DNA from: Bacteroidales bacterium
GTDB lineage: Bacteria > Bacteroidota > Bacteroidia > Bacteroidales > UBA12170
Reading direction: 5' to 3'
Assembly (NCBI GenBank): GCA_016929955.1
Contig: JAFGHU010000073.1
Location: 1 to 51,862 of the forward strand
DNA: 51,862 bases
The first letter of the stretch is position 1. Every line of letters starts with the position of its first letter. The position numbers were made by a program, and so were the translations under genes. The notes under the pieces were generated by a model. The model saw nothing but the letters and a program-made list of their open reading frames with translations, was not told the origin of the DNA and searched no databases. Positions 14,526-21,389 of this stretch are shown here, piece after piece.

Positions 14526-15038
14526 TTATTTTACTTTATGCGAAATATAGTCGATCGAATAAAAAGACAAATGATCGACTCCGGCCGCTTGCATAGAATC
14601 TCTATAGCTGTTTATCTGCTTCATTTTTTGAGCGTAAACATCTTCGTTGTCAATGCCTTCTTTGTGTTTTTGGATATGGTCTTGCTCCATTTGCAAACAA
14701 TAGGCCTCATCTACTCTGAATTCTTTTACCACGCCGCTTACAATAATATTGCTTCCGGTTAAAGCATCATCAAAACGCTCTTTTCCATCGATATGTACAT
14801 CACCAAAATCATTCACCAGAAATAGTCGTTTTCCGCCGTGTTTACATACATGATCAACAATTCCTTCGATCTGAATTTCCTGATCGACCCATTTTCCTGC
14901 CTCTGAATTAAAATCAGCCAAGGTTAATACAGCCTGCTCAGTATTTTCAGGGGTTTCGGTTTTATTTGCTTTTTGATTATTATCACCGCACGACATCAAT
15001 ACAGCAATCAAACTAAATAATAAAAGTGTTTTTTTCAT
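14526..15038 (-). CDS. Putative lipoprotein with OB-fold-like region
   Basis: Lipobox LIAVLMSCG; VDQEIQIEGIVDHVCKHGGKRLFLVNDFGDVHID resembles OB-fold strands. Confidence 0.6.
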   Translation of the reverse strand: MKKTLLLFSLIAVLMSCGDNNQKANKTETPENTEQAVLTLADFNSEAGKWVDQEIQIEGIVDHVCKHGGKRLFLVNDFGDVHIDGKERFDDALTGSNIIVSGVVKEFRVDEAYCLQMEQDHIQKHKEGIDNEDVYAQKMKQINSYRDSMQAAGVDHLSFYSIDYISHKVK

Positions 15039-15391: not shown

Positions 15392-17827
15392 ATGAAGCAG
15401 AAAGCTTTAATTATCCTGTTTTTAGGGATAAACTTCTTTGCAGTGCAGGCACAAAACCCAATCGACAGTCTTACTCGTTTAATAAATACGAGTAAAGCAA
15501 ATTCTCACCAAAAAGCAGGTTTGCTTTTTCAACTTGCAGATTTACAGTACAACTCAAATCAAATAGCAGGTTTAAGAGAAACTATTGAGAAAACCCGCGA
15601 AATTACTACGGCTTTAGATGATCCATGCTTAAATGCCAACTTAGAGTTATTGGAGGCCAAAGAGCTCTATTTATTAAGAGCCCTCAAAGAAAGTCGATGG
15701 AAATCGAAAAGTATTATTGCATATGCCCGTAAAAATAATTGTGCAAAGGCAGAGATAGATGCGCTGTTGTATTTGGTGAATATTAATGTAAGGAACAGCA
15801 ATAGAGATTCGTGTTTAATCTTTATCAATCGGGCGAAAAACAAGGCAGCTGAAATAAACGACCAACATCGAATAGTATATGCAAACAGGTTGTTAGGCGT
15901 TTATTATCTTAAAAAAAATCAGTATAAGAAATCGAGAATGATCTTAGACTCTGTGGCAAAAGCACTTTTAGCCTACAACGATTATTTAAAGATAGGGAAT
16001 GCTTATAGTAATATTGCGGAGTCGTATTATTTGGAATCGAAGTATGATTCTGCACTTCTATTTGCAAGTAAAGCTGAACCATACTTGATAAAAGGCTATG
16101 GAAATTATGCATTAGCCGCTAATTACAATATGATAGCGATAATAAACAAAAGCACTGGACGTATTGATAAAGCTATAGATGTTTATTTTAAAGGCTTAAA
16201 AATCGCTGAAGATTACAATATCACATCCTTGCAGAATATTTTCTGGTACAATTTAGGAAACTGTTATTATATTTTAAATGCAAGAGATAAAGCAGCCGAA
16301 AATTTTAAGTTGTGCTTAAATCTGGCCAGGCAAAATAATGATACTTCTTCCATGGTATATTCGCTTTCTGCATTGGGAAATGTCGCTTTGGAGGAAGATG
16401 ATAATAATGCGGCAAACGACTATTTGCTCGAATCGATGAAATTAGCCTTGCTAAGTAATGATACGTATATGCTTAGTTTTTTGTCGTCGAGTATAGCAAA
16501 ACTTAAAATTAATCAACAAAAATATAACGAAGCACAAGCCTATTTGGACAGAGCTTATAACTATGACCGCATTTTAAATTCTCCTGAAAGCAGTATCAAT
16601 ACAAAAATAATCCAAGCACAGCTTTTTGCAGAAACGCAGAGAACACAGAAAGCTATTGAATTGCTACTGCTTATTTTGGATGAAGCCCAAAAGATACAAT
16701 CAGTAGAAAATTATCGTTATTCACTTGAAACACTGAGTGAGGTCTATGAAAAAAGGAAGGATTATGAGAATGCATTAAGATTTCATCGTTTGATTGATCA
16801 GATTGAAGACAGTTTAAATTTAACATCGACACTTGAAAAATTTGTAAATCAAGAATTAGAGTTTGAGCAGGAAAAAATAGAAAGAATACAACAACTCGAA
16901 ACCGAAAAAGCAACGCTCGAGCATCAAAGCAAACTAAAAGAAACGCGCTATATTGCTATTCTGGCCATCTTTACTACCGTCGTTTTTCTGGTTATTTCTT
17001 TTCTTTTTTATTTTTTATCGAAGTCGAGAAGTCGAAGAGCGAAGATTTTTGAAAGAAAGAATCGGATTATTGAAAAGAATAGTCAGGAATTAAGAGTAAC
17101 AGTCGCTAAATTAAGGCAGCTCACTGATGAACTTGATATCGCCAATACAACTAAATCCAAACTGTTTTCCATCATTGGCTACGACTTAAAAAATCCTTTT
17201 AATGTAATTTTGGGTTATGCTAATGAATTGATGACGGATGAACCTGAAGATAAGGAAACGAGACAGATTTTTTATCAAAGAATAGTAAAATCGTCAAATC
17301 AGCTTGTTGAAATGATTAATACTTTGCTTGAATGGGCAATGGCACAATCGGGCAAAATAGCGTATATGCCTGAGCTGGTTAATATTACTAAAGTGCTGAA
17401 TGAGGTTATTGATACTTCAAAAATAAACGCAGATAAAAAGAGCATAAACATTGAGAGAGATTTTGATAGGGATGCAGAATATATGCTTGTGGCAGATAAA
17501 AATATGATGGTTAGGATCTTTCATAATTTAATAAGTAATGCCATAAAATTTACGCAAAAAAATGGTCAAATCAATGTGGGATGGAGCAAAGAACAAGACC
17601 AGATTCGCTTTTTTGTAAAAGACAATGGCATAGGAATGGTCCCGGAAGATGCTGCTGACATTTTTGAAAAATCGCTAGATATGTCGAAAGACGGCACACA
17701 GGGAGAAAAAGGAACCGGACTCGGTTTAAGTATTTGTAAAGAGTTTGTGAATAAACACGAGGGAAATATTTGGGCCGAAAGCGAATTAGGAAAAGGATCT
17801 AAATTCTATTTCAGCATCCCGATTTAA
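15392..17827 (+). CDS. TPR-containing membrane sensor histidine kinase-like protein (atypical H-box)
   Basis: Signal peptide, TPR repeats, TM helix, H-box-like FSIIGYDLKNPFNVILGYANEL, N-box HNLISNAIKFT, G boxes DNGIGM and GTGLGLSI. Confidence 0.9.
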   Translation: MKQKALIILFLGINFFAVQAQNPIDSLTRLINTSKANSHQKAGLLFQLADLQYNSNQIAGLRETIEKTREITTALDDPCLNANLELLEAKELYLLRALKESRWKSKSIIAYARKNNCAKAEIDALLYLVNINVRNSNRDSCLIFINRAKNKAAEINDQHRIVYANRLLGVYYLKKNQYKKSRMILDSVAKALLAYNDYLKIGNAYSNIAESYYLESKYDSALLFASKAEPYLIKGYGNYALAANYNMIAIINKSTGRIDKAIDVYFKGLKIAEDYNITSLQNIFWYNLGNCYYILNARDKAAENFKLCLNLARQNNDTSSMVYSLSALGNVALEEDDNNAANDYLLESMKLALLSNDTYMLSFLSSSIAKLKINQQKYNEAQAYLDRAYNYDRILNSPESSINTKIIQAQLFAETQRTQKAIELLLLILDEAQKIQSVENYRYSLETLSEVYEKRKDYENALRFHRLIDQIEDSLNLTSTLEKFVNQELEFEQEKIERIQQLETEKATLEHQSKLKETRYIAILAIFTTVVFLVISFLFYFLSKSRSRRAKIFERKNRIIEKNSQELRVTVAKLRQLTDELDIANTTKSKLFSIIGYDLKNPFNVILGYANELMTDEPEDKETRQIFYQRIVKSSNQLVEMINTLLEWAMAQSGKIAYMPELVNITKVLNEVIDTSKINADKKSINIERDFDRDAEYMLVADKNMMVRIFHNLISNAIKFTQKNGQINVGWSKEQDQIRFFVKDNGIGMVPEDAADIFEKSLDMSKDGTQGEKGTGLGLSICKEFVNKHEGNIWAESELGKGSKFYFSIPI

Positions 17828-17833
17828 AATACA

Positions 17834-18400
17834 TCACTCAATTTCGATATCGTATTTATATAGCAAACCTCCAATTTCTGTTAGCGAAAATTTTGCCTTT
17901 TTAATCCGATTTAGCTCAGGGTCTATCCTATAGTTAAACGCACTTCTAAAATCGGCTTTTTGAAGCTTGCTGTTTTCGAAATGGGCGCCTGATAAATCGC
18001 AATTATCGAAATGTGAGGCGCTTAAATCGGCTTCAGTAAAATCAACCTCTTGTAAATTACAATTTATAAATGGCGTGTTTTTTTAACTGGCATTTATAAA
18101 AGGAAGAAAAACTTAACTGACAAGCATCAAATTTTACCGAAAACAGAAAATTGTTTGCCTGCTCAAAATGCAAGCCCATCTATTTGCAGTTTTTAAATTC
18201 CGCTTCCTTAAAAGATGTATTCGTAATTTTTGCATTGCTTAAATCGCACGCTTCAAAAATACATTCGGCAAAGCTGAAATTCGCTAAATTAACAGGCGTG
18301 AAAACGCAATTCATAAACGTACAATTCTCGAAATTATTAATGAGTTATGTGTGTAATCAATTTCTTTAACGATCTCGTTTTCGGCAAAAATTTTCTTCAT
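17834..18400 (-). pseudogene. Pentapeptide-repeat protein, disrupted by two frameshifts and an in-frame stop
   Basis: Reverse-strand pieces: MKKIFAENEIVKEIDYTHNSL / NFENCTFMNCVFTPVNLANFSFAECIFEACDLSNAKITNTSFKEAEFKNCK*MGLHFEQANNFLFSVKFDACQLSFSSFYKCQLKK / PFINCNLQEVDFTEADLSASHFDNCDLSGAHFENSKLQKADFRSAFNYRIDPELNRIKKAKFSLTEIGGLLYKYDIEIE*. Confidence 0.88.
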
Positions 18401-18904: not shown

Positions 18905-19588
18905 ATGACACAGAAAGAAACCAGTCGAAGAGATTTCCTGAAAAAATTAGCCATCGGAGGTGGTGGCGTAGTTGTTTTAGGAAAATATCATTTCTTATTT
19001 GGAAATGAAGCCGCCAATGGAATCCTCAAAGCCATAGTTGTTGATTTTGATAAATGTACGGGTTGCAGAACCTGCGAAACGGTTTGTTCTGCTTTTCATC
19101 ATCCTGTCGAAATTAATGGCGAATATTTAAATGGTTTAGGAAATCCAAAATTGGGTAATATTCAGGTTTATCATTTTAATCCTGATGTTGATATACCTAG
19201 TGTTTGCGCCAATTGTCCAGACACGCCCTGCGTAAATGCTTGTCCGGTAAATGCGGATCCTAATGCACTTATAAAACCCATTTTTCGAGATGAGCAAACT
19301 CAAGCCATTCGAACAAATCATTCCGTTTGCATCAGTTGTGGTTCTTGTGCCGCCGCTTGTGAGGGTGAACGTACGGGTGTTATAAAAATGAATCCTATTA
19401 CCAATCATCCACAACATATCTGTGATCATTGCGGAGGAGATCCACAATGCGTTAAAAATTGTCCTTTTGGTGCCTTATCGTTTAGAGAAGCGGATGTAAG
19501 CAGGGCTTATTTTGGTTTGTCGCCGGAAGAAATTGCCGAAGAATTATTTGAACGTTATTATGCAGGAGAGGAGGTGATCAATGGATAA
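18905..19588 (+). CDS. Tat-signal 4Fe-4S ferredoxin-type electron transfer protein
   Basis: SRRDFLKKLAIGGGGVVVLG twin-arginine signal; clusters CTGCRTCETVC, CANCPDTPCVNACP, CISCGSCAAAC, CDHCGGDPQCVKNCP. Confidence 0.92.
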   Translation: MTQKETSRRDFLKKLAIGGGGVVVLGKYHFLFGNEAANGILKAIVVDFDKCTGCRTCETVCSAFHHPVEINGEYLNGLGNPKLGNIQVYHFNPDVDIPSVCANCPDTPCVNACPVNADPNALIKPIFRDEQTQAIRTNHSVCISCGSCAAACEGERTGVIKMNPITNHPQHICDHCGGDPQCVKNCPFGALSFREADVSRAYFGLSPEEIAEELFERYYAGEEVING

Positions 19589-21389
19589 GATTTGGGGACA
19601 ATATGGAGTTTTATTAGATGTAAATCTAACAACGAAGGAAATTAAAAAAACAGCGATACCCAAGGATGATTTAAAGCATTATCTTGGTGGTCGTGGATTA
19701 GGAATGAAAATATTATGGGATAGGATAAAAGAACCCGGACTCGATGCTTTTTCGCCCGAAAATCCATTATTATTTATGCCCGGGCCATTCAGTGGTTTGC
19801 CTATTCCTTCTTCATCGCGTACAACGATTGTAACAAAATCGCCGCGTACATCACCCATAAATAAAAAATTCGAGCATTCATCTACCATTTCCTATGCCAA
19901 TATGGGCGGGTTTTTTGGACCGGAAATTAAGTATGCCGGCTACGATGGAATTGTAATTACCGGAAAGGCAAGTGCTCCGGTTTATCTGCTTATTGAAGAT
20001 GATAAAGTGGTACTTAAAAGTGCGCGCTCCTATTGGGGAATGGGAACCGATAGTTTCGATAAAATATTAATCGAAAAATACGGTAAAGAATACCAGTCGT
20101 GCTATATAGGTCAGGGTGGCGAAAATCAGGTTTTATATGCTAGCGTTATCAATACAGCAGCACGTGCGGCCGGCCGTGGCGGCGTAGGAGCTGTTATGGG
20201 CTCTAAAAATTTAAAAGCCATAGTAGTTAAAGGCACACAGCAGCCCAATTTGGCTAAACATAAAGAATATCTTGATTTATTGGCTAAAGCTAGGAATGCA
20301 TTTCGCGAAGATATAGAAGGCGTTGAATATTGGCGTTCGGGAGGGACGGCACATGCACTCGAAAGTTCGAGCAATAATGGCACTATGGCCGTAAGAAATT
20401 ACCGCGAAGGCACTTTCAAAGAAATAGAAATGATCAATACCAAAGCGGCAAGAACTCAAATTTGGAAACGTGATTTTGCATGTTTTTCTTGTCAACTTGC
20501 CTGCAAAAAAAGCGGCTTTGCTAAAGGAGCTTATGGTGGTGTTGTTCACGATGGGCCGGAATACGAAACCGGAACTATGGTTGGAGCCAATCTTTTAATT
20601 TCTGACTTAGCAGGGCTGAACAAGATAATCAGTATTTGCGACGATTATGGAATTGATATAATTACGACAGGTGGTGTGCTTGGTTTTTTGATGGAGGCAC
20701 GCGAAAAAGAAATGATTGATCTCGACTATTTGGATGGAATCGATTTAACCTGGGGAAATGTGGATGCTTCAATCGAGATGATTCATAAAATTGTCAGAAA
20801 AGAAGGCATCGGGAAATTGGCCTCGCAAGGTGTAAAAGCTTTGGCTGAAGATATTGGACAAGGGTCAGATGAATTTGCAATTCATGTAAAAGGCCACGAA
20901 TTGGCGGCCTGGAATGTAAATACACGCGCAGAACGGATGATGATTACTTATGGAACTGCAAATCGTGGAGCATGTCATCTCAATAGTTCAAGCCCTAGTC
21001 GCCAAAACCACAACGCAATGCAAGATTCTTTAGGTGCGTGTAGCTTTGCCGGAAGTTGGTATAGAGGAGAAATTTCCTACCGTCATTTTATTGAAGTAAT
21101 TACCGGTATTGAGCACACAGAAGAGGAGTTTGCTCAAATTGGTGAGCGTATTTTTAATTTGGAAAAAATGTTCAACTACCGCGAAGGTTTTACGCGCATT
21201 GACGATAAAATGCCGGAACGCTTTTTTAAAGATGCGCATACTTACGGAAAAGGAGAAGGCGTTTTGGCAACACACGACGATTTTAATCAATGGATAGAAG
21301 CTTATTATAAAGAGCGTGGATGGGCTTTGGAAACAAGTAAACCTAGTCGCGAAAAGCTGGTTGAACTGGGCTTGGAGTTTACAGCCTAA
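19581..21389 (+). CDS. Aldehyde:ferredoxin oxidoreductase family protein (tungsten/molybdenum bis-pterin)
   Basis: LGGRGLGMKILWDRI, GPFSGLPIPSSSRTTIVTKSPRT, AARAAGRGGVGAVMGSKNLKAIVVKG, CFSCQLACKK, DSLGACSFA; overlaps the upstream Fe-S gene by 8 bp. Confidence 0.93.
   Translation: MDKIWGQYGVLLDVNLTTKEIKKTAIPKDDLKHYLGGRGLGMKILWDRIKEPGLDAFSPENPLLFMPGPFSGLPIPSSSRTTIVTKSPRTSPINKKFEHSSTISYANMGGFFGPEIKYAGYDGIVITGKASAPVYLLIEDDKVVLKSARSYWGMGTDSFDKILIEKYGKEYQSCYIGQGGENQVLYASVINTAARAAGRGGVGAVMGSKNLKAIVVKGTQQPNLAKHKEYLDLLAKARNAFREDIEGVEYWRSGGTAHALESSSNNGTMAVRNYREGTFKEIEMINTKAARTQIWKRDFACFSCQLACKKSGFAKGAYGGVVHDGPEYETGTMVGANLLISDLAGLNKIISICDDYGIDIITTGGVLGFLMEAREKEMIDLDYLDGIDLTWGNVDASIEMIHKIVRKEGIGKLASQGVKALAEDIGQGSDEFAIHVKGHELAAWNVNTRAERMMITYGTANRGACHLNSSSPSRQNHNAMQDSLGACSFAGSWYRGEISYRHFIEVITGIEHTEEEFAQIGERIFNLEKMFNYREGFTRIDDKMPERFFKDAHTYGKGEGVLATHDDFNQWIEAYYKERGWALETSKPSREKLVELGLEFTA

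Follow-up and report, generated by a model that had tools for sequence, protein, structure and literature searches.

In the chemistry of HisKA kinases, the formation of phosphohistidine needs a phosphoacceptor His, and a sensor kinase that carries Tyr at this position raises the question of whether it is a kinase-dead regulator, a newly inactivated gene or a product of consensus error. Such a protein, here P0001, is encoded in a stretch of 51,862 nucleotides (the window) on contig JAFGHU010000073.1 of a Bacteroidales bacterium, whose genome is a draft assembly of 241 contigs, 82.5% complete and with 5.2% contamination. The 2.4-kb frame is fully open, with no internal stop over its 811 codons. 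Pfam matches to HisKA (36 bits against a cut-off of 26.9) and HATPase_c (90.4 bits) indicate that the frame and the domain assignment are right, and TPR_12, TPR_1 and TPR_2 are matched around residues 284-352. A TPR sensor region, HisKA and HATPase_c are thus combined on one chain, as in TPR sensor kinases, except that the H-box has no phosphoacceptor His. The best NCBIfam match is FimS (NF053520; 3.9e-49, residues 367-810), although its score of 167.4 bits lies well below the curated cut-off of 600 for this equivalog. As judged from these matches and the site described below, P0001 is a genuine TPR sensor histidine kinase with FimS-like architecture, in which the phosphoacceptor His is replaced by Tyr597. 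A structure model of the core, built from a 2-sequence alignment, had a pLDDT of 57.8, which is too low for interpretation.

The H-box of P0001 reads KLFSIIGYDLKNPF, and the wider segment around Tyr597 is TKSKLFSIIG-Y-DLKNPFNVILGYANEL (also given as TKSKLFSIIG-Y-DLKNPFNVILGYA). In tblastn-based alignments with kinases of the same genome and the nearest relatives, this column is His in nearly all sequences. A sequence-only reading of this DNA had proposed that Tyr stands in the H-box where the family normally has His, with the ATP-binding motifs left intact, and our alignments bear this out on each count: the codon is TAC, the nearest relative has His, relatives carry (A/G)HDL(K/R)NP, and the N-box (NLISNAIKF, residues 712-720), the G1 box (DNGIGM, residues 744-749) and the G2 box (GEKGTGLGLSIC, residues 771-782) are all kept. 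The same reading had named an alternative phosphoacceptor His as a finding that would refute it; this is now excluded, since the only His residues in the whole protein are at positions 39, 159, 465, 511, 711 and 789 and none of them falls inside the DHp domain. The three roles suggested in that reading, a pseudokinase or ATP-binding scaffold, a partner in heterodimer trans-phosphorylation and a newly inactivated kinase, all stay plausible. In a 15-sequence alignment of kinase cores, the His column is the only otherwise invariant column lost by P0001; it was not flagged as private to this protein only because L071, another kinase with Tyr here, is part of the alignment. The Asp at +1 and the Asn at +4 are retained, and form the D/ExxN/T signature that affects the phosphatase activity of HisKA proteins, in which the His itself is likewise implicated in dephosphorylation (PMC5727384). 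The coordinates of these features are collected in the table.

Table. Features of the P0001 locus, numbered from the first letter of the window
Feature	Position	Strand	Basis
TPR sensor histidine kinase gene P0001, 811 aa	15392..17827	+	ORF list, translation, Pfam
Probable signal peptide (MKQKALIILFLGINFFAVQA)	15392..15451 (next part starts at 15452)	+	sequence inspection, inference
TPR-containing sensory region, residues about 21-519	15452..16948	+	Pfam; periplasmic location inferred
Single strong transmembrane segment (YIAILAIFTTVVFLVISFLFYFL), residues 520-542	16949..17017	+	hydropathy
HisKA (DHp) domain, residues 588-654	17153..17353	+	Pfam
TAC = Tyr597, phosphoacceptor position	17180..17182	+	codon read, alignments
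Asp +1 and Asn +4 (D598, N601), D/ExxN/T signature	17183..17194	+	translation, alignment
HATPase_c ATP-binding domain, residues 702-810, N/G1/G2 boxes intact	17495..17821	+	Pfam, alignment
Broken pentapeptide-repeat gene, frameshifts and in-frame TAG	17837..18400	-	comparison with congener G008

Relatives were sought in genomes of the same family, order and class, and in the family and order of G304, the genome that yielded the sole full-length relative. This protein, L040 (L056:3667-6168, minus strand), is 38% identical over residues 6-810, has His in its H-box (IIGHDLRNPF) and lies in a different gene neighbourhood; its host belongs to a different family of the same order. A protein scan of genome contigs for relatives found none, and no ortholog was detected at E<=1e-60 in 10 congeneric genomes, in which the only match was a partial one of 30% identity in G002, with His. 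Tyr at the phosphoacceptor position of a full P0001-type protein is therefore seen in one genome only. In a tree of kinase cores P0001 and L040 form a clade with 100/99 support, with L071 outside, and the core branch of P0001 (0.41) is shorter than that of L040 (1.01). Tajima-type tests did not find P0001 significantly faster in any of 13 outgroup comparisons, and L040 was the faster sequence in both of the two with the highest chi-square values (7.7 and 3.8). The shorter branch and these tests therefore give no sign of general or long relaxation in P0001, a rate pattern that fits a constraint still in force as well as a change that happened very recently.

The locus is bordered by genes that are syntenic in the congener G008, namely a 170-residue gene (14526-15038) on one side and, on the other, a 4Fe-4S ferredoxin-like protein paired with an aldehyde ferredoxin oxidoreductase (18905-21389, plus strand). 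Between these borders, the slot held by P0001 is filled in G008 by a gene for an NAD(P)/FAD pyridine nucleotide-disulphide oxidoreductase (L057:17466-18830, plus strand). The 1.1-kb gap behind P0001 holds no hidden response regulator and contains a pentapeptide-repeat pseudogene, whose ortholog in G008 is intact (190 aa, L057:16627-17199). Neither a response regulator nor a partner kinase was found adjoining P0001, and the window has no Rfam elements. The closest paralogs of P0001 in its own genome are at C182:18968-19714, C108:5121-5837 and C46:16511-17323. The position of P0001 in a variable slot beside a decayed gene keeps a recent inactivation of the kinase under consideration.

To gauge how often Tyr occupies this position we carried out pattern surveys at two levels of stringency. 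A strict 26-base pattern for II(G/A)YDL(K/R)(N/S/T)P, run over a collection of genomes from 84,980 species, matched one kinase, L071 (L071:6071-7546, minus strand) of Bacteroidetes bacterium GWE2_42_24, which has Tyr in its H-box (SIIAYDLRSPF), an intact CA domain and 40% core identity to P0001. Its sensor is a Tll0287 domain, unlike the TPR region of P0001, and since it also falls outside the P0001-L040 clade, the change from His to Tyr was probably independent in the two proteins. Six further matches to the strict pattern were rejected, five being non-kinase frames of Methylobacter and one a non-kinase Clostridiales protein. A looser degenerate H-box pattern was run on 393 genomes of the order. 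Of its 11 matches, seven were discarded as short frames and four are real kinases, L080 with intact ATP boxes, L081 with eroded ones, and L084 and L085. The last two are orthologous hybrid kinases from two genomes of one genus, both with Tyr for His (MSYEIRTP), eroded ATP-binding motifs and receiver-like regions, and appear to represent a conserved Tyr pseudokinase. The His version of the looser pattern gave 352 matches in 21 genomes, with about 10 in each of those that lie outside the genus, from which we roughly estimate that Tyr replaces His in about 0.1% of cases, of the order of one per thousand in this group; these pattern counts are lower bounds, because P0001 itself escapes the looser pattern (Leu-Phe precedes its motif). 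The substitution thus looks rare, yet recurrent in unrelated kinases.

The genome that encodes P0001 contains three further kinases without the phosphoacceptor His, carrying Asn, Arg and Gln respectively, which makes four in all. The Asn case is a kinase-like protein of a chemotaxis cluster (L087:1975-2868, plus strand, equivalent to C123:28474-29367; orthologs L090-L097), located at X in the order CheY-CheA-MCP-CheW-CheR-X-CheD-CheB, which is identical in G008. His is replaced by Asn (SNISNEIVNPF) in every one of the nine congeneric genomes compared, at identities as low as 50%, and the G1 box is also altered (NNQGN); the protein has the profile of a pseudokinase conserved within a chemotaxis operon. 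The other two are tandem hybrid histidine kinases on contig C95 (L088:2422-3903 and 1221-2432, both on the minus strand; orthologs L105-L111), both of which retain receiver domains. The downstream kinase has Gln in each of the six genomes in which an ortholog was matched, and the upstream kinase has Arg in three genomes and His in five congeners. As read from these comparisons, the split between Arg and His is a recent step that is still visible, and the pair seems to have lost its phosphoacceptors in two steps. On the strength of their conservation the Asn, Arg and Gln proteins make stronger candidates for genuine His-less regulators than P0001 does. The presence of these three in the same genome, each with counterparts in related genomes for comparison, raises the odds that P0001 has a function. 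Four His-less kinases, three of them with replacements shared by relatives, also suggest that annotation understates how common such proteins are in this group, as profile searches continue to name them histidine kinases.

The reading that we favour, at a little under an even chance, is that P0001 is a functional kinase-dead regulator. Lacking His597, it should be unable to form phosphohistidine and would therefore be unable to start a phosphorelay. Most likely it would work as a TPR-gated, ATP-binding pseudokinase, docking a response regulator that also serves other kinases of the cell; it would then sequester this regulator, sense its phosphorylated form, as DivL of Caulobacter crescentus does, or help to dephosphorylate it through Asp598/Asn601. 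Its intact CA domain could also transfer phosphate to the His of another kinase in a heterodimer. Several observations speak for a function: the frame is open, the HATPase_c match is strong and its ATP boxes are kept, the core has lost no otherwise invariant column but that of the His and shows no general relaxation, Tyr occurs with an intact CA domain in the unrelated L071 and in L080, and DivL is an established precedent. The three other His-less kinases also share their replacement residues with related genomes, which suggests that such proteins are tolerated and retained in this lineage. What speaks against it is that the genus searched yielded no Tyr ortholog, that the sole full-length relative has His and that no regulator or partner kinase was found beside the gene; moreover, a lone private substitution in an otherwise unaltered kinase would also be expected if the inactivation were very recent or the consensus were wrong. 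We consider it unlikely that the more specific combination holds, whereby only the phosphoacceptor has been replaced, a live ATPase domain phosphorylates a heterodimer partner or the protein is a monofunctional response-regulator phosphatase, and the lineage repeatedly converts histidine kinases into His-less regulators that are then conserved (with Asn, Arg and Gln versions in the same genome).

A newly inactivated kinase is a realistic possibility, if a rather doubtful one. Tyr597 would then be a recent loss-of-function mutation in an outgoing gene, or a polymorphism among strains, and would serve no positive function. The lack of an ortholog at E<=1e-60 in the 10 congeners, which offer nothing beyond the partial match of 30%, fits this explanation, and so do the disulphide reductase in the syntenic slot of G008, the adjoining gene that is broken here and intact there, the His of the nearest relative and the fact that this His is the sole invariant core position gone from P0001. 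In addition, two of the three Tyr-kinase lineages in the order (L081 and L084/L085) have eroded ATP-binding motifs, unlike P0001. An outgoing gene sits less well with a frame that is open throughout and with a single inactivating change that falls on the phosphoacceptor instead of at random, and Tyr is found with an intact CA domain elsewhere too (L071 and L080). An error of consensus or assembly in a metagenome-derived or draft contig, the true codon being CAC, is improbable. TAC and CAC are one transition apart and the source is a draft in 241 contigs with 5.2% contamination; however, at ordinary coverage a consensus seldom has a single wrong base, the rest of the gene is clean, and it would be unlikely a priori for an error to hit exactly the one catalytic residue encoded in these 2.4 kb. 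By far the least probable explanation is that Tyr597 is itself the phosphoacceptor, which would make P0001 a bacterial tyrosine kinase built on the histidine kinase fold. Tyr is chemically able to take phosphate and the CA domain of P0001 is intact, but the transfer of phosphate from phosphotyrosine to Asp is energetically unfavourable. The precedent is also against it: DivL, for which such a role was first proposed, was found in 2014 to have no autokinase activity and to need none in vivo (PMC4211667).

Among known systems, FimS of Porphyromonas gingivalis has a similar layout, with a periplasmic TPR region, membrane helices and a histidine kinase (PMC11053733). FimS acts through its autokinase activity with the partner regulator FimR, whereas P0001 has neither the phosphoacceptor His nor an adjacent regulator. 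The laboratory-evolved ChrS pseudokinase of Corynebacterium glutamicum was inactivated by a frameshift in the CA domain, and not at the phosphoacceptor as in P0001; kinase-dead ChrS changes signalling through a paralogous kinase, and there is evidence of heterodimers (PMC9491836).

The closest parallel for the substitution is DivL (Tyr550; PDB 4q20), which has Tyr at the HisKA phosphoacceptor position and keeps the DHp-CA fold, as P0001 does, and which is matched by P0001 in a PDB sequence search (E 8.5e-15). Experiments have established DivL as a Tyr pseudokinase, which binds its response regulator in the form DivK~P; it has PAS sensors and weak ATP binding and shows no kinase or phosphatase activity (PMC4211667), so a phosphatase function does not follow from Tyr and an intact fold. 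P0001 resembles a DivL-like pseudokinase in that its phosphoacceptor position is not occupied by His. It does not belong to the DivL family proper, having Pfam TPR matches instead of PAS and grouping with a His kinase from another family of the same order. The TPR sensor region, the intact ATP-binding boxes and the nearest relatives, which are His kinases, all set P0001 apart from DivL, and the Tyr most likely arose independently. The type of substitution is thus already known from DivL and the architecture from FimS-like TPR kinases, with P0001 itself being new and its function putative. If functional, P0001 would be a further natural case of a Tyr phosphoacceptor position besides DivL, here with an intact ATP-binding domain; it would separate the loss of the acceptor from the loss of catalysis, and would offer a simple test of kinase-dead sensors as phosphatases, as sensors of phosphorylated regulators or as donors in heterodimers.
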